Assembly (NCBI GenBank): GCA_028284905.1
Contig: JANQQU010000060.1
Location: 211,226-275,225, forward strand
Direction of reading: 5' to 3'
DNA: 64,000 nt
From: Calditrichia bacterium
GTDB taxonomy: Bacteria; Calditrichota; Calditrichia; RBG-13-44-9; J075
The position numbers were made by a program, and so were the translations under genes. Positions 34,618 through 43,441 of the stretch are shown here, in pieces. The notes under the pieces are model-generated. The model saw only the letters and a program-made list of their open reading frames with translations. It ran no database searches and was not told the origin of the DNA. Position 1 is the stretch's first letter. Every line of letters begins with the position of its first letter.

Positions 34618-36993
34618 ATGATTAAAAACCACCTTAAAATTGCCCTTCGCAACCTCTGGAAACATCGCATGTTTTCAATGGTCAACGTCTTTGGTCTGGC
34701 TGTCGGCCTTACCGTCGCCATCATTATCCTTCTGTTTGTTTCCAGCGAGCTAGCTTATGACGATTTTCATAAGAATGGCGAGACCGTTTATCGGGTATTA
34801 CGAAAAGCAGACCTGAACGACAGTAACTACCTCATCGGCGTCACCTCCGGGCCTTATGGAGAAGCGCTAAAAAATGATTATCCGGAAACCGTGCAGGATT
34901 TCACCCGGGTAATGCCAACCGATGGCTTAGTCACCTATGCAGACAAATCGTTCAACGAAGAAAAATTCTTTCTGGTAGACGAAAACTTTTTCGACTTCTT
35001 CACTTATCCTCTGGCATCGGGCAATGCATCGGCAGCGCTTACCAATCCCAACAACATCGTTTTATCATCGGAAATGGCCCGGAAATATTTTGGTGAGAAA
35101 AATCCGCTGGGGGAAACGCTTCGGCTGGATAACCAACTTGATTTTATCGTCACCGGCGTTCTGGCAGAAAAACCCGGACGATCTCATCTGGATTTCGACT
35201 TTCTCGCCTCTATCAAAGTGATGGACAATTTCAGCTGGTTCAGCAACTGGTGGAGCAACAGCCTTTACACCTATGTTCGCATCAATACGCCGCAGGAAGC
35301 TGCAGGACTAGATGCACAGCTGTCCGGGTTTATGGATAAATATTTTGCTGCGGATTTCGAGCGAAACGGCACCCGTGTTGATCTTACCCTGCAACCACTA
35401 TCGCAGGTTTATTTCCAGAATGAAGTCCGTTATGATCGGGTGCTGCATGGCGATAAAAACGCGGTTTATATTTTTATGGCCATCGCTGTTTTCATCATGT
35501 TGATTGCCTGTATCAATTATACAAATTTAACGACAGCCAGGGCCGGCCAGCGGGCGCGGGAAATTGGCGTAAGGAAAGCGCTGGGTGCTGGACGCTCGCG
35601 TTTAGTTATCCAATTTCTGTCAGAATCTTTTCTGATGACGTTTTCCGCGATCTTAATTTCTTTAGCTGCGGTCGAATTACTGCTACCATTATTCAACAGC
35701 ATATTTCAATTAGACCTGGTTTTCCCGCTAGGCAGTCTTTCTGTTCTCGGCCTTCTCGCTGCATTGTTAGTGCTGGTTTCCATCGTTGCCGGTAGCTATC
35801 CGGCCTTCCTGCTTTCTTCATTTCGGCCGATCGCGGTATTAAATCAGCAGAAAACCCGTGCAGGCTCTGTGGTGATTCGAAAGGGACTCGTAGTTTTCCA
35901 GTTCGCGATCTCAGTCTTCCTAATCATCGCAACACTATTGATCGGCAAACAGCTGAACTTTCTCAACGAAAAAGACCTCGGTTTTGATGACGAGCAGGTT
36001 GTGTTGGTCCGTATGAATAACAATGCAATTTTTAACCAGCGTGAAGATTTCCTTAATCGCCTGCGAAACGAGCCGGGGATCATTGAAGCCTCTGCCATGA
36101 CGGGAGAGCCCGGTGGTTTTCATGATGCAATGTCTTTTGATATTGACGGTATGGATCAGAACTATCGATTTCGCACTGTCTTTACAGATTACACCTACGC
36201 AGATGTGTTTGACCTGGAATTACTTGCCGGGAGAAATTTCTCGCGAGACTTCGGCACAGATGCCAATGAAGCAGTGATACTCAATGAAACCGCCGTTCGC
36301 ACCATCGGCCTGGACAATGAATCAGCAATCGGATTAACATTAACAAACACCATGATGGATACCACTCAACGGCGCGTTGTCGGTGTTGTTAAAGATTATC
36401 ATTTCTCGTCATTAAAAGATGAAATCGAACCGTTAATAATCATCAATCATTCCAGCGCCCGAACACTGGCGATAAAGGTTGCGGCTGAAAACATCGACAA
36501 TCAACTAAGCATCATTCGAGCACGGTGGGAAGTAATTTCACCATCTTATCCTTTCGAATACAAATTCCTTGATGATAGCTTCAGCATGCTTTATCAGCAG
36601 GAACAGAAGGAATCTACCCTCCTGAACATTTTCGCAGCAATTTCAATCATCATCGCCTGCCTGGGTGTCTTTGCACTTGCCGCTTTTACGGCAGAGGAGC
36701 GCACAAAGGAAATCGGCATTCGAAAAGTGCTCGGGGCAAGCACCGGCGGAATTATTAGTTTGCTCTCTTCGGATTTCATCAAGCTTGTGCTAATTGGCAA
36801 CTTAGTGGCCTGGCCGTTAGCGTATTTCGGGATGGAGAAATGGCTGGAGAATTTTGCTTATCGCACCGAGATCAGCCTGGATGTATTTATCGCAGCCGGT
36901 ATTGGCGCGCTCCTGGTAACGTTGCTGACCATCATCTGGCAGGCAGTCAGGGCCGCATTGGCCAACCCTGTCGATGCGCTGCGCCATGAATGA
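34618..36993 (+). CDS. ABC permease, double MacB_PCD-FtsX (array member 9 of 11)
   Basis: A 791-residue member, 47 bases after member 8 with only a weak GGGA ribosome site. It starts MIKNHLKIALRNLWKHRMFS. Helix 1 has LTVAIIILLFVSSEL without cysteines. The first FtsX block has TTARAGQRAREIGVRKALGA (E315 start of the coupling motif) and the second EIGIRK from 698. The linker before helix 5 is VLNQQKTRAGSVVIRKGL. The second periplasmic domain ends with KDYHFSSLKDEIEPLIIIN. It is probably the last gene of the operon that begins with member 2, because a long palindrome and a 185-base gap follow. Confidence 0.9.
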   Translation: MIKNHLKIALRNLWKHRMFSMVNVFGLAVGLTVAIIILLFVSSELAYDDFHKNGETVYRVLRKADLNDSNYLIGVTSGPYGEALKNDYPETVQDFTRVMPTDGLVTYADKSFNEEKFFLVDENFFDFFTYPLASGNASAALTNPNNIVLSSEMARKYFGEKNPLGETLRLDNQLDFIVTGVLAEKPGRSHLDFDFLASIKVMDNFSWFSNWWSNSLYTYVRINTPQEAAGLDAQLSGFMDKYFAADFERNGTRVDLTLQPLSQVYFQNEVRYDRVLHGDKNAVYIFMAIAVFIMLIACINYTNLTTARAGQRAREIGVRKALGAGRSRLVIQFLSESFLMTFSAILISLAAVELLLPLFNSIFQLDLVFPLGSLSVLGLLAALLVLVSIVAGSYPAFLLSSFRPIAVLNQQKTRAGSVVIRKGLVVFQFAISVFLIIATLLIGKQLNFLNEKDLGFDDEQVVLVRMNNNAIFNQREDFLNRLRNEPGIIEASAMTGEPGGFHDAMSFDIDGMDQNYRFRTVFTDYTYADVFDLELLAGRNFSRDFGTDANEAVILNETAVRTIGLDNESAIGLTLTNTMMDTTQRRVVGVVKDYHFSSLKDEIEPLIIINHSSARTLAIKVAAENIDNQLSIIRARWEVISPSYPFEYKFLDDSFSMLYQQEQKESTLLNIFAAISIIIACLGVFALAAFTAEERTKEIGIRKVLGASTGGIISLLSSDFIKLVLIGNLVAWPLAYFGMEKWLENFAYRTEISLDVFIAAGIGALLVTLLTIIWQAVRAALANPVDALRHE

Positions 36994-37010
36994 TTAAACC
37001 AATGCAAACC

Positions 37011-37095
37011 TTGGTTGTCGTTGGGGGGTATTATCGTAGAGAAAATTCATGAATTTTCTCTACACGATAATACAATACGCCCCAACGACACCCAA
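37011..37095. repeat. Long inverted repeat between permeases 9 and 10
   Basis: An 85-base near-perfect palindrome starts 18 bases after the permease 9 stop. The centre is the 18-bp perfect palindrome GAAAATTCATGAATTTTC at 37041-37058. The outer arms are TTGGTTGTCGTTGGGG and its complement with one mismatch. The right arm carries two small insertions, one of which makes the direct repeat GTATTGTATT. As RNA it could fold into a hairpin with roughly 35 paired bases, far longer than an ordinary terminator, and no T-run follows. It could be a REP/MITE-like element, an RNA-processing hairpin, or a bidirectional stop. Confidence 0.75.
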
Positions 37096-37178
37096 ATCAT
37101 CCCACCAGGCATTCCATGTAAACCATTTCCTGGTTCGGTTTGTCCAATTTTTAACAAACAAAGACAAATGGAGAACCG

Positions 37179-39578
37179 ATGCTTCGGAATTACATCAAGA
37201 TCGCCCTGCGACAGCTTTGGCGCTATAAGGGCTACTCATTTTTAAATATTTTTGGTCTCGCTGTTGGTCTGGCTTGCTGCATTCTCATCCTGCTTTATGT
37301 GCGTGATGAACTATCCTACGATCAATTTCACAGCAACAGCGAACACATCTATCGTATCACCGCAGAATTAAAATCGGCGAATCGGCCGACGGCACACCTG
37401 GCAGCAACCCCACCCGCGCTCGGTCCTGCTTTAAAAAATGATTTCCCGGAAATCTCTGCTGTCACACGTCTGAAAACTCAGCGTTTTTTTGTCTCCCGGG
37501 ATAACAACCAATATTATGAAGATAAGTTTTATTTTGCGGACGAATCGTTCCTGGAGATTTTCACATTTCCCCTGGAATACGGCAACGCGACAAATGCACT
37601 CTCAGCGCCTTTTCAGGTGATTCTCACCAGGGAAACCGCCCGGAAATATTTCGGGTGTGAAAATCCGATAGGCAAATCTTTAGTCCTTGAGGACACGCTG
37701 CAATTTATTGTTAGCGGGGTATTTACAAATATCCCTGCGCAGAGCCAATTTGATTTCGATTTTATCGCCTCCTTCCAATCCCTCGAACACCCGGCCTTAA
37801 AGCGCCAATATCCCTGGTGGAGTTTTAATACTTACACATTCATTCTTTGTAACCCTTCTGCCAAGATGGAACCCCTTGCGGAAAAAGTTGCGACCATTGC
37901 TGATCACTACATTGCCGGTCAACAAGCCACCTATGGCACACAGCAACGTTATCAGATTCAACCCTTTACCGATATTTACTTGCATTCGGACCTTACCCAT
38001 GAAATGACTGCCCTCGGAGATGGTTTTTACGTTTACCTCTTCAGCATCATCGGCATTCTCATTCTCCTCATTGCCTGTATCAATTTCATCAATATTTCCA
38101 CCGCCAGGGCAATCGGGCGCGCCAAAGAGGTTGGTTTACGAAAAACCCTCGGCGCATTTCGCAAACAACTGGCAGGTCAGTTTTTCGGCGAGATTTTTCT
38201 CGCAGTATTTGTCGCCATGCTATTCGCACTATTGCTTGTTAAGATAGTACTCCCCTATTTCAACGATTTTAGTGGCAAGCAATTGATGCTGTCGTTTTCG
38301 GGGGACTGGCAATTGAGCGGCAGCTTGCTTGCACTCATGCTCATCGTCAGCTTAATCGCTGGTGCCTATCCGGCGATATCACTTTCCGGGCTATCTTCCG
38401 TACGGGCGATTAAAGGTATGAAACAGAGCGGTAAAGCGGCCGGGCGCCTGCGTAGCGCACTGGTCATCGTTCAATTTGTTATCACCGCAATACTGATAAG
38501 CGGCACGATTATCGTTCAGGAGCAGCTCACTTTTATGCAGCAGTCGAAACTGGGATTCGAAAAGGAACGAGTGCTTGCTGTGCCGGTACGGGCACTACCG
38601 AATATCCATCAACGATTTGCAACAATTCGTGAACAGTTTATCGCCAACCCGGCAGTCATCTCTGCCGCAATTTCATCATCTGTACCGGGCAATAATCTTG
38701 GTGAAATCGTCTATATTCCAGAGGGCAGCAATACCACCGAAACACAAGCGATTAAGACATTGATCGTCGATGAACAATTTTTGGAAACTTACGGTATCCG
38801 CATGGCCGCCGGTCGCAATTTCTCCCCCTCTTTTGCAACGGATGCAGCCAGTGCATTTGTCATCAACTCGGCAGCAGTAAAACATCTTGGCTGGGGATCT
38901 CCGGAGGCAGCCATCGGTAAAGAGATCACCTGGGGTTGGCCGGGCAAAAAAGGCACGGTCATCGGTGTGACGGAAGACTTTCATCAAATCTCTCTGCAAA
39001 CCGCAATATCGCCGATTCTAATGCATATACAACCCTCGTGGTATGAATATCTCTCTATAAAAATTAACACGACTAATGTTGAGCACACTTTACAATCACT
39101 GGAAAACACCTGGCAGGCCCTGATTCCCAATCGCCCTTTTGAATACTTCTTTATAGATGACTTTTACAACAACCAGTATCAGGCCGAAAGTCGTGTTGGA
39201 GCAATATTCAATGGATTTTCAACTTTAGCGATTCTGATTGCCTGCCTGGGCTTATTCGGCTTAGCGGCTTTTACCAATCAACAACGGGTGAAGGAGATTG
39301 GCATCCGCAAGACCCTTGGCGCTTCGGTTAGCAGCCTGATAATCCTGCTGGCCAAACAATTCCTGATGCTGGTGTTAGTCGCGAATTTGATTGCCATTCC
39401 ATTGGCCTGGACTGCACTTTCCCGCTGGTTGGAGAACTTTGCTTATCGCACCGAAATTCATTGGAGCGTTTTTCTCCTAAGTGCATTTATTGCGTTCTTT
39501 ATAGCTCTCGCGACTATTGGCTGGCAAACGATTCGCACGGCTCTGGCGAATCCAATTGGGGCACTGCGTCATGAATAA
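37179..39578 (+). CDS. ABC permease, double MacB_PCD-FtsX (array member 10 of 11)
   Basis: A 799-residue member in its own interval, with GGAGA before the ATG. It begins MLRNYIKIALRQLWRYKGYS; Gln replaces Asn in the otherwise invariant RN. The coupling motifs are EVGLRK (from 317) and EIGIRK (from 706), each followed by TLGA rather than VLGA/VxGA. The second periplasmic domain reads VTEDFHQISLQTAISPI, a degenerate form of the KDFHF-SLH-PL block. The second FtsX block has FTNQQRVKEIG. The tail is ALANPIGALRHE. The long palindrome upstream and a hairpin downstream suggest independent transcription. It is clearly a paralogue, but among the more divergent. Confidence 0.9.
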   Translation: MLRNYIKIALRQLWRYKGYSFLNIFGLAVGLACCILILLYVRDELSYDQFHSNSEHIYRITAELKSANRPTAHLAATPPALGPALKNDFPEISAVTRLKTQRFFVSRDNNQYYEDKFYFADESFLEIFTFPLEYGNATNALSAPFQVILTRETARKYFGCENPIGKSLVLEDTLQFIVSGVFTNIPAQSQFDFDFIASFQSLEHPALKRQYPWWSFNTYTFILCNPSAKMEPLAEKVATIADHYIAGQQATYGTQQRYQIQPFTDIYLHSDLTHEMTALGDGFYVYLFSIIGILILLIACINFINISTARAIGRAKEVGLRKTLGAFRKQLAGQFFGEIFLAVFVAMLFALLLVKIVLPYFNDFSGKQLMLSFSGDWQLSGSLLALMLIVSLIAGAYPAISLSGLSSVRAIKGMKQSGKAAGRLRSALVIVQFVITAILISGTIIVQEQLTFMQQSKLGFEKERVLAVPVRALPNIHQRFATIREQFIANPAVISAAISSSVPGNNLGEIVYIPEGSNTTETQAIKTLIVDEQFLETYGIRMAAGRNFSPSFATDAASAFVINSAAVKHLGWGSPEAAIGKEITWGWPGKKGTVIGVTEDFHQISLQTAISPILMHIQPSWYEYLSIKINTTNVEHTLQSLENTWQALIPNRPFEYFFIDDFYNNQYQAESRVGAIFNGFSTLAILIACLGLFGLAAFTNQQRVKEIGIRKTLGASVSSLIILLAKQFLMLVLVANLIAIPLAWTALSRWLENFAYRTEIHWSVFLLSAFIAFFIALATIGWQTIRTALANPIGALRHE

Positions 39579-39586
39579 AACCATAT

Positions 39587-39620
39587 TTCGTTGATCGTTC
39601 TTCGTTCCTCGATCAACGAA
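39587..39620. terminator. Hairpin between permeases 10 and 11
   Basis: TTCGTTGATCG and CGATCAACGAA form a perfect 11-bp stem with a 12-base loop, eight bases after the permease 10 stop. No T-run follows on the plus strand, so termination is uncertain. It may instead protect or process the transcript. Confidence 0.5.
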
Positions 39621-39664
39621 CAAACATTAAATAAAACCAATCAATTTAACTGACTGGGGCAAAT

Positions 39665-42052
39665 ATGCTTAAGAATTACCTTAAAATCGCTTTACGAAAT
39701 TTACGAAATTACAAAGCCTATTCGCTGATCAACATTCTTGGGCTCTCAATTGGCATGGCCTGTTGCATGATCTTAATTGTTTTTGTTCGTCATGAATACA
39801 GCTTTGACCGCCATCATGAACATGCCGAGCAAGTGTATCGAATCGATACCCGGGCTAATATTTTTGGCCGGGAGCTCATCTGGACCTACACACAGGAACC
39901 ATTTACCAGTACAGTAAAAAATGATTTTCCGGAAGTGATCTATTCTTCCCATTTCGACCGGGCGCGAAATATTGATATTCGCATCGAAGACCGGGTCGTC
40001 CGTGAAGAGAACTTCTTTTGGGCGAATCAGGATATTCTGGAAATATTTACTTTTGAGATTCTTCAAGGTGAAAAGACATCGCTACTCAGCCGACCTAATA
40101 CAGTAATCATTACAGATGAGATGGCTGCCAAGCATTATCCGGATATCGATCCCATCGGTAAAACTTTCTACATAGATACAACAGCCTATGAAATTACCGG
40201 CATCATAAAACCGCAGCCGGTCAACTCACATTTTCATGCAAACTTCATCGCATCTTATCTCACCTTCCCGGAAGCAGAAATACCGCGCTGGTTCAATTTC
40301 AGCACCCGCACTTATGTCCGGCTGCAGGACGGCATCACCAGGGAGATGTTTGCCGCAAAGCTGCCCGACTTTATTGAACGGCATTTCGGGGAAAAGGCCC
40401 GGGAGTTTGGCTACCAATATGAATATATACCAAAACCATTACTGGATATTCATTTACACTCAAATATTCGTGGAGAGCTCGAAGCGAACGGCAATATAAA
40501 TTACGTCTATATTATGAGCATTATCGCGGCATTTATACTTGCCATTGCCTGCATCAACTTCATGAATCTTTCCACTGCACGTGCCGGGCGCCGGGCTAAA
40601 GAAATCGGTCTTCGGAAGGTAATGGGCGCCTACAAGCGCCGCCTAATCGCCCAATTTTTAGGAGAATCGCTTTTAATATCATTACTGTCATTTGGATTAT
40701 CTTTTCTACTAATTCGCCTCTTTCTACCGACCTTTAACCTGATGGCCGGCCGGGAAATCGCTTTCAGCAGCATCACTGATCCTCTCCTGTTTTTGCCGTT
40801 TTTGGGCATCGTATTAATTGCCGGCATTGGTGCAGGTCTTTATCCGGCTTTTTATCTCACTCGTTTTCAACCGGCACAGGTATTCCGTGGCAATGCAACC
40901 CCAGCGGGCGCAGCCAGCATTATTCGCAAGGGCTTGGTCGTTTTGCAATTTTCCATTTCTATTTGTCTGGTTATCGGCGCTTTGATTATCAATACCCAAT
41001 TGGATTTTATGCGTAATAAAGATCTCGGCTTTGCCAAGGATCATGTCGTGGTTATTCCATTGAAAACAGCAGATGTCATTAATAGCGCCCCGGCATTAAA
41101 GCAGGAGTTAAAGAACCAATCGCGAGTTGTAAATGTTACTGGCGCAAATCATTACCCTGGCACAGGCTATATGACCTGGGACCACTGGCCGGAAGGCGCG
41201 GGTGACGATGCCGGCATTTCCATTGATGCGGCATACATTTCTTACGACTATTTCGAAACTATGGAACTGCCAATTATTGAAGGAAGGGGTTTCTCGAAAG
41301 ATTTTTCCACCGATCTGGAAGAATCGGTAATGATCAATGTTACCGCAGCGCGCATGCTTGGCTTTGATGATGAAGCCATTGGGAAAATGATGTATACCGC
41401 CGGGCCTTCCCGGGAAGGCCGAACCGGGCGCAAAATAATCGGTGTTTTCCAGGATTTTAATGCCGGGTCGTTGCGAAATGAAATTAAACCCCTCATTGTC
41501 TATCCCCGGGAAAGTACCCGCAATCTTTTAGTGCGCATAGAAGCGAATAATATACAGGCTGGCCTGGCCCAACTTGAATCATCATTTGCTACAACCAATC
41601 CCGGTATGCCTTACGAATACCGCTTTATGGATGATATGCTCAACAACTTTTATAACGCAGAGCAAAACCTTTCCGAGATCATTAATACGTTCACAGTATT
41701 AGCCATCTTTATCGCCTGCCTTGGCCTTGTTGGTCTTATTTCTTTTACTGTAGAGCAACGGCGCAAGGAGATCGGTATCCGGAAAGTGCTAGGTGCATCG
41801 ACGAGCAGCATTGTCGGCATTTTATCTCGGGAGTTCTCACGCCTGGTTATTCTGGCGAATGTTATCGCCTGGCCCCTGGCTTATTACGCAATGCAACGCT
41901 GGTTGGAAGATTTCGCTTATCGAACCGAAATCCATTTCAGCATATTCCTCTGGTCCGGCATTTTGGGATTGGGTATTGCCCTGGCAACCATCAGTTTTCA
42001 GACAATAAAGGCGGCACTGGCAAACCCGGTACAGGCATTGCGCAGCGAATAA
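39665..42052 (+). CDS. ABC permease, double MacB_PCD-FtsX (array member 11 of 11)
   Basis: The last member, 795 residues, 86 bases after member 10, with GGGG before the ATG. It starts MLKNYLKIALRNLRNYKAYS. The coupling motifs are EIGLRK (from 313) and EIGIRK (from 702). The first periplasmic domain has MAAKHYPDIDPIGK instead of KYFGD-NPxG, and the second has VFQDFNAGSLRNEIKPL, in which the usual His is Asn. It also has a distinctive GANHYPGTGYMTWDHWPEG early in the second periplasmic domain. The tail ends ALANPVQALRSE. It converges on the ATP-grasp gene with only 13 bases between the stops. No ATPase gene follows, closing the array without its energy subunit. Confidence 0.9.
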   Translation: MLKNYLKIALRNLRNYKAYSLINILGLSIGMACCMILIVFVRHEYSFDRHHEHAEQVYRIDTRANIFGRELIWTYTQEPFTSTVKNDFPEVIYSSHFDRARNIDIRIEDRVVREENFFWANQDILEIFTFEILQGEKTSLLSRPNTVIITDEMAAKHYPDIDPIGKTFYIDTTAYEITGIIKPQPVNSHFHANFIASYLTFPEAEIPRWFNFSTRTYVRLQDGITREMFAAKLPDFIERHFGEKAREFGYQYEYIPKPLLDIHLHSNIRGELEANGNINYVYIMSIIAAFILAIACINFMNLSTARAGRRAKEIGLRKVMGAYKRRLIAQFLGESLLISLLSFGLSFLLIRLFLPTFNLMAGREIAFSSITDPLLFLPFLGIVLIAGIGAGLYPAFYLTRFQPAQVFRGNATPAGAASIIRKGLVVLQFSISICLVIGALIINTQLDFMRNKDLGFAKDHVVVIPLKTADVINSAPALKQELKNQSRVVNVTGANHYPGTGYMTWDHWPEGAGDDAGISIDAAYISYDYFETMELPIIEGRGFSKDFSTDLEESVMINVTAARMLGFDDEAIGKMMYTAGPSREGRTGRKIIGVFQDFNAGSLRNEIKPLIVYPRESTRNLLVRIEANNIQAGLAQLESSFATTNPGMPYEYRFMDDMLNNFYNAEQNLSEIINTFTVLAIFIACLGLVGLISFTVEQRRKEIGIRKVLGASTSSIVGILSREFSRLVILANVIAWPLAYYAMQRWLEDFAYRTEIHFSIFLWSGILGLGIALATISFQTIKAALANPVQALRSE

Positions 42053-42065
42053 TTTTGATCCGTTA

Positions 42066-43046
42066 TCAGCCACACATTCTGGCCGGATGATTTATATAAT
42101 GCTGCAAAAAGCGACTACTATATAAGTTATCCGCCAGAAAATTGGCAATCGCTTTCATTCCAGTAAGTTTTATGCCGGCAGCTAATTCTGCGGATTGATT
42201 ATAGTTGGTATTCACATTTACATCATAAGTATAATGATTGCCATAACGATCAGTGACGAACTCAATGCCAGCAGTATCGATGCGATTGTTTACCAAAAAT
42301 TGCTGATATGCCCGGATCAAAAAATCATTCCGAAAACCCCTTAGGATAGTAAATTTTTCATACCCAGCACCAGAAGCTGTTCGGCGATTTTCCAGGCTGC
42401 ACTGCCCGGCGGGACATAATTCAAATCCATCACGGGTATCAACTCTCATCGCGTAGAGAAATTTACCATCCACAAATTCGCAGCGGGTAATATACCCTTC
42501 CGGGTTTTCGATATACTCCTGCAGTAGCCAAACACCATCTACCGGACGCGGTTGAGAGGCATCGGTAAGAAATGCCCGAACTTCTTCCACATCGTAAAAC
42601 TTTTTCACGCCTGCGCCCATCCCTCCACGATTAGGCTTCAGGATAAATGGCGCCTTACCCAATTGTTCAGCTGCTTTTATCAGATTTTCATCACCGGCAA
42701 CGGCTGTCGTTCGCGGCGTTCTGATGCCTGCTTTTTTAAAAGCGAAATACTGGGCGATTTTATTGATTTCCAAATGCAGCGCCTCTACGCCATTAATTAC
42801 CCGACGGCCGTTTTCATCCAGCCAGCGAAGAATCGTATCGGTATTTTCCGGCGCATATCGATTTCCACGCAGATAGGAGGACGCCCCAACCCGGTTATAA
42901 AAAACCCCATTAGGCGGCGACTCTTCAAACGCTACGACGCCTTCAAGCGGAGACCATTCTGCCCAGGGAATTTCCAGATCATTTAAAGCGTCCGCCAGGG
43001 GAGAAATCCATTCAGGATTTTCGTGAATCACATAAACCTTTTCCAT
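42066..43046 (-). CDS. RimK/glutathione-synthetase-like ATP-grasp ligase
   Basis: A 326-residue soluble protein. The ATP-grasp fold is seen in ILKPNRGGMGAGV (136-147, flexible Gly-rich loop), LLQEYIE (174-180), and the metal site IEFVTDRYG with YDVNVNTNYN (274-283). ATP-grasp enzymes join a carboxylate to an amine or thiol through an acyl phosphate. RimK-like relatives add amino acids to peptides or proteins. A pair of cysteines in ELCPAGQC (209-216) looks like a conserved feature. AAGGAAG precedes the ATG. The start lies 43 bases downstream of a strong terminator that ends the Met/Cys-rich peptide gene, so expression may depend on read-through. The substrate is unknown; a peptide substrate is a hypothesis drawn from context. 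Confidence 0.8.
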   Translation of the reverse strand: MEKVYVIHENPEWISPLADALNDLEIPWAEWSPLEGVVAFEESPPNGVFYNRVGASSYLRGNRYAPENTDTILRWLDENGRRVINGVEALHLEINKIAQYFAFKKAGIRTPRTTAVAGDENLIKAAEQLGKAPFILKPNRGGMGAGVKKFYDVEEVRAFLTDASQPRPVDGVWLLQEYIENPEGYITRCEFVDGKFLYAMRVDTRDGFELCPAGQCSLENRRTASGAGYEKFTILRGFRNDFLIRAYQQFLVNNRIDTAGIEFVTDRYGNHYTYDVNVNTNYNQSAELAAGIKLTGMKAIANFLADNLYSSRFLQHYINHPARMCG

Positions 43047-43085
43047 TGCTTCTTCCTTTACATTGTCGATTATCGGGTCTATAAA

Positions 43086-43120
43086 TGAAAAGCCCGCTGC
43101 AAAGAACTTGCAGCGGGCTT
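43086..43120 (-). terminator. Intrinsic terminator between the 40-residue peptide gene and the ATP-grasp gene
   Basis: AAGCCCGCTGCAA and TTGCAGCGGGCTT form a perfect 13-bp stem with a five-base loop (43090-43120). On the minus strand the stem is followed by TTTCATTTAT. It lies 27 bases after the peptide stop and ends about 40 bases before the ATP-grasp ATG. Confidence 0.78.
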
Positions 43121-43147
43121 CCGTATTTGTTATCTGATTTAGATGGG

Positions 43148-43270
43148 CTAACCATCATCATTCACCAAAGCAAGACCGCTGCATACCTTACAGGCACACA
43201 TCATCATACAGCTGCACATCATCATGGCGCTGATTTGGTGAATAAATAATTGGTCGTTTAAAATTTGCAT
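43148..43270 (-). CDS. 40-residue Met/Cys-rich peptide (possible RiPP precursor, metal-binding or leader peptide)
   Basis: A small ORF with ATG five bases after GGAAAG. The translation has an ordinary N-terminal part (MQILNDQLFIHQ), then the striking SAMMMCSCMMMCACKVC, and a C-terminal SGLALVNDDG. It contains five Cys and seven Met in 40 residues, with two MMMCxC units. The core is encoded by repeated ATGATGATG-TGY triplets. The gene lies just upstream of the ATP-grasp gene and downstream of a second mini-gene with the same AMMMC core, and it is followed by its own terminator. A leader-plus-core layout suggests a modified peptide. The thiol/thioether density would also suit Cu(I) or other soft-metal binding. 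Met/Cys codon runs before a terminator would also fit attenuation. No known family was recognised. Confidence 0.6.
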   Translation of the reverse strand: MQILNDQLFIHQISAMMMCSCMMMCACKVCSGLALVNDDG

Positions 43271-43300
43271 AAATTCTTTCCGGTAACACTTCTATAAACT

Positions 43301-43336
43301 AAAAAACCCGCTAATTGTATGAAACGATTAGCGGGT
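43301..43336 (-). terminator. Intrinsic terminator after the 25-residue peptide gene
   Basis: ACCCGCTAAT and ATTAGCGGGT form a perfect 10-bp stem with an 11-base loop. On the minus strand it is followed by a T-run (43301-43305). It lies 27 bases after the 25-residue peptide stop and 31 bases before the start of the 40-residue peptide gene. Confidence 0.82.
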
Positions 43337-43363
43337 GAAATTTTGCGATGCGATAGATATAAT

Positions 43364-43441
43364 CTAATGAAATCCCGGTAATCGGTTGCTGTTCATCATG
43401 ATACACATCATCATGGCAATATTGGTGATCAGGGTTTTCAT
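43364..43441 (-). CDS. 25-residue Met-rich peptide related to the downstream 40-residue peptide
   Basis: A very short ORF whose ATG lies about nine bases after AAAGAGA. The translation starts MKTLITNIAMMMCIMM and ends NSNRLPGFH. The AMMMC core is identical to the first unit of the 40-residue peptide, and the DNA around it is similar (CACATCATCATGGC read on the plus strand in both). It has one Cys and six Met. A perfect intrinsic terminator follows, and a possible sigma-70 promoter precedes it with a short leader. The repeated core in two neighbouring mini-genes argues against chance, although simple ATG-repeat expansion is an alternative. It may be a second precursor or leader peptide, or a decayed copy. 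Confidence 0.5.
   Translation of the reverse strand: MKTLITNIAMMMCIMMNSNRLPGFH

Follow-up and report, generated by a model that had tools for sequence, protein, structure and literature searches.

In a Calditrichia bacterium, the gene for a RimK-like ATP-grasp ligase is probably controlled by two trp-type ribosome-mediated transcription attenuators, arranged in series in the leader of this single gene and read through Met/Cys codons. We base this proposal on the sequence and predicted folding of one window (the whole stretch of 64,000 nucleotides that was analysed) and on homologous loci in other genomes. In the trp and his attenuators of enterobacteria, control codons in a leader open reading frame (ORF) select between an antiterminator formed by regions 2 and 3 and a terminator formed by regions 3 and 4. 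The same logic of control codons and 2:3 versus 3:4 pairing is proposed here, while the sensed amino acid, the serial duplication, the phylum and the regulated gene differ. What is new is the tandem layout, as single MetL leaders have already been published.

Each mini-ORF would encode a leader peptide, with its run of Met (and Cys) codons gauging charged Met-tRNA/Cys-tRNA, and the exact signal may be Met, Cys or both. When these tRNAs are plentiful, a translating ribosome would enter or pass the RLPG-coding (ORF1) or CSGL-coding (ORF2) segment; with this segment occupied, the intrinsic terminator would form and transcription would stop. When they are scarce, the ribosome would halt on the AMMMC.. 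run and leave the next downstream segment free to base-pair with the terminator's 5′ arm once this is made, and RNA polymerase would continue. Transcription of the ligase gene would need both gates to be open, which would make the response steep.

Putative leader ORFs and their control codons

The features on which the proposal rests are listed here, all on the minus strand:

43364..43441, minus strand: leader ORF1, 25 codons, MKTLITNIAMMMCIMMNSNRLPGFH (from sequence and Met/Cys enrichment)
43374..43384, minus strand: candidate antiterminator arm 1 (region 2), CGATTACCGGG, ORF1 codons 20-23
about 43306-43336, minus strand: terminator hairpin 1 (regions 3 and 4; from MFE and constrained folds)
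43148..43270, minus strand: leader ORF2, 40 codons, MQILNDQLFIHQISAMMMCSCMMMCACKVCSGLALVNDDG (from sequence and Met/Cys enrichment)
43172..43183, minus strand: candidate antiterminator arm 2 (region 2), TGCAGCGGTCTT, ORF2 codons 30-33
about 43088-43122, minus strand: terminator hairpin 2 (from the MFE fold)
42066..43046, minus strand: RimK-like ATP-grasp ligase, putative regulated gene, 326 aa (from Pfam, NCBIfam and AlphaFold)

A preliminary description of this DNA had noted two minus-strand mini-ORFs of 25 and 40 codons with a shared AMMMC core, and both observations are borne out. Met and Cys account for 6 of 24 internal codons in ORF1 (p = 1.6e-5) and 11 of 39 in ORF2 (p = 1.1e-9), as judged by a binomial comparison with the neighbouring genes, where they make up 2.3% of codons. 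The control codons are Met10-12, Cys13 and Met15-16 in ORF1, and Met16-18, Cys19, Cys21, Met22-24, Cys25 and Cys27 in ORF2; each ORF thus appears to have the concentration of sensed-amino-acid codons that marks a trp-type leader. ORF1 was also called in a longer form by the ORF lister, with a TTG start in the same frame. When short ORFs in the window were scanned for at least five Met/Cys in eight codons together with a purine-rich upstream site, only ORF1 and ORF2 passed, and one passing ORF arose in ten whole-window dinucleotide shuffles. The DNA pattern coding for AMMMC, GCNATGATGATGTGY, occurs at two sites in the whole 8.55-Mb genome, namely ORF1 and ORF2, with no further AMMMC-coding site found there. 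As for the ribosome sites, earlier called plausible, a purine-rich site does lie upstream of each ORF (AAAGAGAA for ORF1 and GGAAAG for ORF2), but both are weak and neither passes a strict Shine-Dalgarno filter.

Terminators, candidate antiterminator arms and modelled stalls

Each mini-ORF is followed by its own intrinsic terminator, as had been reported, placing one between leader ORF and gene in both cases. Hairpin 1 comprises a 10-bp stem with inner pairs, followed by TTTTTT at 43300-43305, and hairpin 2 a 15-bp stem with a 5-nt loop, followed by the imperfect T tract TTCATTT. Neither was listed on the minus strand by a simple terminator scan, and the palindrome of hairpin 2 was picked up on the plus strand by a pattern scan.

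Both antiterminator arms, which the preliminary description had missed, sit inside their own mini-ORF directly 3′ of the Met/Cys run. Arm 1 is complementary to the 5′ arm of terminator 1, CCCGCTAATCG (region 3, 43325-43335), with one C/C mismatch, and 21 of 5000 dinucleotide-shuffled leaders equalled its RNA duplex of -13.9 kcal/mol. Arm 2 is complementary to AAGCCCGCTGCA of terminator 2 (region 3, 43107-43120), again with one mismatch, placed similarly to that of arm 1, and its duplex of -19.3 kcal/mol was equalled in 13 of 5000 shuffles. Pairing each leader with the other's terminator (leader 1 with terminator 2, leader 2 with terminator 1) gives unremarkable values, 523 and 529 of 5000 shuffles, respectively. 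Compared with random segments of the window, the arm 2 duplex is exceptional (13 of 4000 equal it), whereas that of arm 1 is only moderate (351 of 4000). Both leaders therefore have a predicted antiterminator that lies 3′ of the control codons and is mutually exclusive with the terminator, and these segments support attenuation by Met/Cys codon runs, which had previously been listed as an alternative. At equilibrium the folds favour the terminators over the antiterminators, so any switching would have to be kinetic.

Stalls were modelled by partition-function folding of each leader, cut off after the 5′ arm of its terminator, while a ribosome footprint was moved codon by codon; the RNA upstream of the ribosome was either masked or left free. 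In leader 1, stalls up to codon 15 leave region 2:3 pairing on (about 9-10 expected pairs), a stall at codon 16, the last Met, is marginal (7.3 expected pairs masked, 1.8 free), and from codon 18 to the stop the pairing is off. In leader 2 with the upstream RNA masked, the pairing stays on through codon 25, where MMMCSCMMMC ends, declines across codons 26-29 and is zero at codon 30 and beyond. When this RNA is left free, leader 2 responds irregularly from codon to codon, and a ribosome at the stop codon also allows the antiterminator to form, so the off state of leader 2 would depend on a competing hairpin over the Met/Cys run. In the MFE fold of the complete leader 2 (-65.2 kcal/mol), the terminator is favoured together with a hairpin that pairs the Met/Cys codons with region 2. 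Apart from its last control codon, leader 1 is thus predicted to behave as a fairly clean trp-type attenuator, and the modelling suggests that leader 2 is probably one too. A large potential hairpin (43160-43255), closed by TTCACCAAA / TTTGGTGAA, encloses the Met/Cys run of ORF2.

The ligase gene, its homologues and their leaders

That the next gene encodes a RimK-like ATP-grasp ligase, as first described, is upheld by its Pfam match (RimK, 8.9e-6). The gene is preceded by the ribosome site AAGGAAG at about 43052-43058 and meets a convergent gene at its end, so the transcript seems to carry one gene. The best NCBIfam match is a RimK family (2.3e-20, below that model's cut-off), and no graspetide ligase model is among the NCBIfam matches listed. 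The AlphaFold model (pLDDT 84.5) has ArgX/LysX as its best PDB structure matches and is also near RimK and Ddl, with the graspetide ligase PsnB ranking sixth; a PDB search by sequence gave a weak ATP-grasp match only. Beyond the ligase gene, positions 34618-42052 hold three consecutive genes for FtsX/MacB-like permeases, each about 795 aa long, which look like diverged copies of each other; the last of them converges on the ligase gene.

Homologues with 38-43% identity occur in Helicobacter, Campylobacter and Microbacteriaceae, and were also found on Pediococcus plasmids. In the first three groups, an SfnG-like FMN monooxygenase gene follows the ligase gene, an NtaA/DmoA-type monooxygenase gene often precedes it, and cysK, cystathionine gamma-synthase or a cystine-type binding protein is encoded nearby. 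From these neighbours of distant homologues in sulfur operons, we infer that the enzyme probably ligates amino acids or peptides as part of the supply of sulfur amino acids, and the locus suggests that an uncharacterised family of ATP-grasp ligases, present in several phyla, has a role related to sulfur. No SfnG-like monooxygenase was found in a search of the bacterium's own genome, and the relatives searched within the class had no orthologue of the ligase; only one genome is known to carry the locus. A search with the leader DNA across the phylum gave no match except one of 25 bases at chance level. Two further distant ATP-grasp homologues (L100 and L101) adjoin genes that read from sequence as siroheme-synthesis-like (CbiX-like and CysG-like), which would also fit sulfite assimilation.

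Three Campylobacter-family operons carry a Met/Cys mini-ORF with a ribosome site upstream of the ligase gene or of its partner monooxygenase gene. These are MQAQAQNLQTKFAFFMSAMMMCLLARK at L015, which includes ..FFMSAMMMCLLARK and contains SAMMMC (2 of 1000 shuffles give such an ORF), MSALSFNFKFSFFMTHTSYMCLCAQK at L017, with ..FFMTHTSYMCLCAQK (0 of 1000), and MQNFVASLFELCQMCVMRSS at L039, with ..LCQMCVMRSS (4 of 1000). The SAMMMC-coding pattern has one site in 153 Campylobacter-family genomes, at the homologous L015 operon, and the L017 and L039 leaders keep the Met/Cys codons but not AMMMC. Obvious intrinsic terminators were not seen in these three leaders, which weighs against the attenuation reading. 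The Met/Cys mini-ORF was absent at Helicobacter, Microbacteriaceae, Spirosoma and the other homologous loci inspected, and one ORF in Pediococcus was at chance level in shuffles. The motif FELCPA..C, to which the preliminary description had pointed, is kept in most of the ligase family. The recurring feature of these leaders is the Met/Cys codons and not a peptide core, which fits codon-reading leaders rather than RiPP precursors. At L039 (1198-1500), a long untranslated leader that folds strongly separates the mini-ORF from the monooxygenase gene; the whole stretch has a folding energy of -72.6 kcal/mol.

Alternative readings and related systems

The preliminary description had put forward a RiPP cluster, in which the mini-ORFs would be precursors modified by the ATP-grasp ligase; with their Met/Cys core they would form a new graspetide-like class. 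The layout of small ORFs, terminator and ATP-grasp gene is suited to this, the fold of the ligase model also resembles PsnB, and the AMMMC string is seen again in the Campylobacter leader of a homologous operon. We nevertheless reject precursor peptides as very unlikely, because the peptides are missing from homologous loci and antiterminator arms account for the C-terminal parts of ORF1 and ORF2. The description had itself named loci that keep the ligase without the mini-ORFs as evidence against precursors, and Helicobacter, Microbacteriaceae and others have such loci; most homologues belong to ordinary sulfur-assimilation operons of primary metabolism without any such peptide, and those mini-ORFs that do exist have only Met/Cys codons in common. 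The transcript also lacks a protease, exporter or leader-recognition gene, and graspetide models are missing from the NCBIfam matches listed. Neither ORF is rich in Thr/Ser plus Asp/Glu, which agrees with the earlier remark that the core is unlike graspetide cores. Graspetide clusters (PMC8939145) likewise place an ATP-grasp ligase beside small ORFs, whereas here we find no conserved core, no co-conservation and a primary-metabolism context. For genome mining, this is a caution that a mini-ORF, a terminator and an ATP-grasp gene can mimic a RiPP cluster.

Nascent-chain arrest would use the same terminator switch, with the AMMMC peptide itself, rather than codon hunger, stalling the ribosome on a sulfur metabolite. 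AMMMC is common to ORF1, ORF2 and the L015 leader, and the sole SAMMMC-coding site in 153 related genomes falls in a homologous operon, but the L017 and L039 leaders have Met/Cys codons without AMMMC and two occurrences across phyla are few, leaving this quite unlikely. Also unlikely is a serial two-gate attenuator with the AMMMC nascent peptide as a sensor conserved across phyla (here and in the Campylobacter operon), whose gates multiply to give a switch-like response to sulfur starvation. It is highly improbable that the ORFs are untranslated, chance ATG/TGY-rich intergenic DNA beside ordinary terminators: the weak ribosome sites and the lack of conservation in the phylum are consistent with this, yet the Met/Cys enrichment, the repetition of one layout in two copies, antiterminator matches found independently in both and the terminator separating each ORF from the ligase gene all argue against it. 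Least credible of all is the previously suggested binding of Cu(I) or another soft metal by secreted or cytosolic Met/Cys-rich peptides, which composition alone recommends; there is no evident signal peptide, family match or adjoining metal transport or regulation gene, and this reading would leave the terminators and the antiterminator arms unexplained. A SAM riboswitch or T-box leader was rejected, as the window has no Rfam match at the gathering threshold. A PADLOC search also gave no match.

For the favoured reading, tandem attenuation by Met/Cys codons, the closest known systems are the MetL leaders of Campylobacter jejuni and Streptomyces lividans. C. jejuni MetL, upstream of metBA, has 20 aa and 3 Met codons, and ribosome-stalling attenuation has been proposed for it (PMC3847290); Ribo-seq indicates that it is translated (PMC11955535). 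It resembles the present leaders as a short Met-codon ORF before a sulfur amino-acid gene with a transcript end shortly after the ORF, but it is a single leader with a biosynthetic target, whereas here two lie in series before an ATP-grasp gene in another phylum, with longer, mixed Met/Cys runs. S. lividans MetL (..ARCMCRRMCAF), before the methionine-supply operon metNIQ (PMC8079986), shares a mixed Met/Cys run in a short leader, yet is leaderless, single and without a clear intrinsic terminator. The Cys leader peptides of actinobacterial cys operons, with Cys codon runs before sulfur genes (PMC1262725), are similarly short ORFs, though with Cys only and no terminator or antiterminator found. 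These published MetL and Cys leaders establish that this kind of leader exists. Met or Cys leader-peptide attenuation is nevertheless rarely described, being known in the literature found from Campylobacter and Actinobacteria; our literature searches returned no paper on tandem or serial ribosome-mediated attenuators, and topical searches for methionine-codon attenuators were also empty. The locus is a ready test of whether two serial attenuators sharpen a response.

Several other candidates were set aside. AMMMC-coding sites elsewhere in the phylum gave no in-frame leader, and one TTG-start ORF of 20 codons lies inside a gene-like stretch. A CMMMC pattern in a family relative falls within long open frames. 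Before Cys/Met PLP-enzyme genes in the bacterium's own genome and its relatives, no convincing Met/Cys leader was found, with two SAM riboswitches there instead; in the own genome, a SAM riboswitch (S box) lies at L081:98-203 upstream of such a gene, a point against attenuation at the present locus. The Pediococcus plasmid operon is not evidence for Met/Cys, because the aligned specifier of its T-box is AUU or UUA. This T-box, on a Pediococcus acidilactici plasmid (L026:2798-3026; RF00230, 69.7 bits, E 2.8e-15, below the gathering score), lies upstream of genes for a thioredoxin-domain protein, an amino-acid symporter and the ATP-grasp homologue. Between the first two, at L026:3605-3700, sits a short ORF (MCRIRIRKVNNWLIFWRGSALGETVMCCVL) with a strong ribosome site and the C-terminal sequence VMCCVL.
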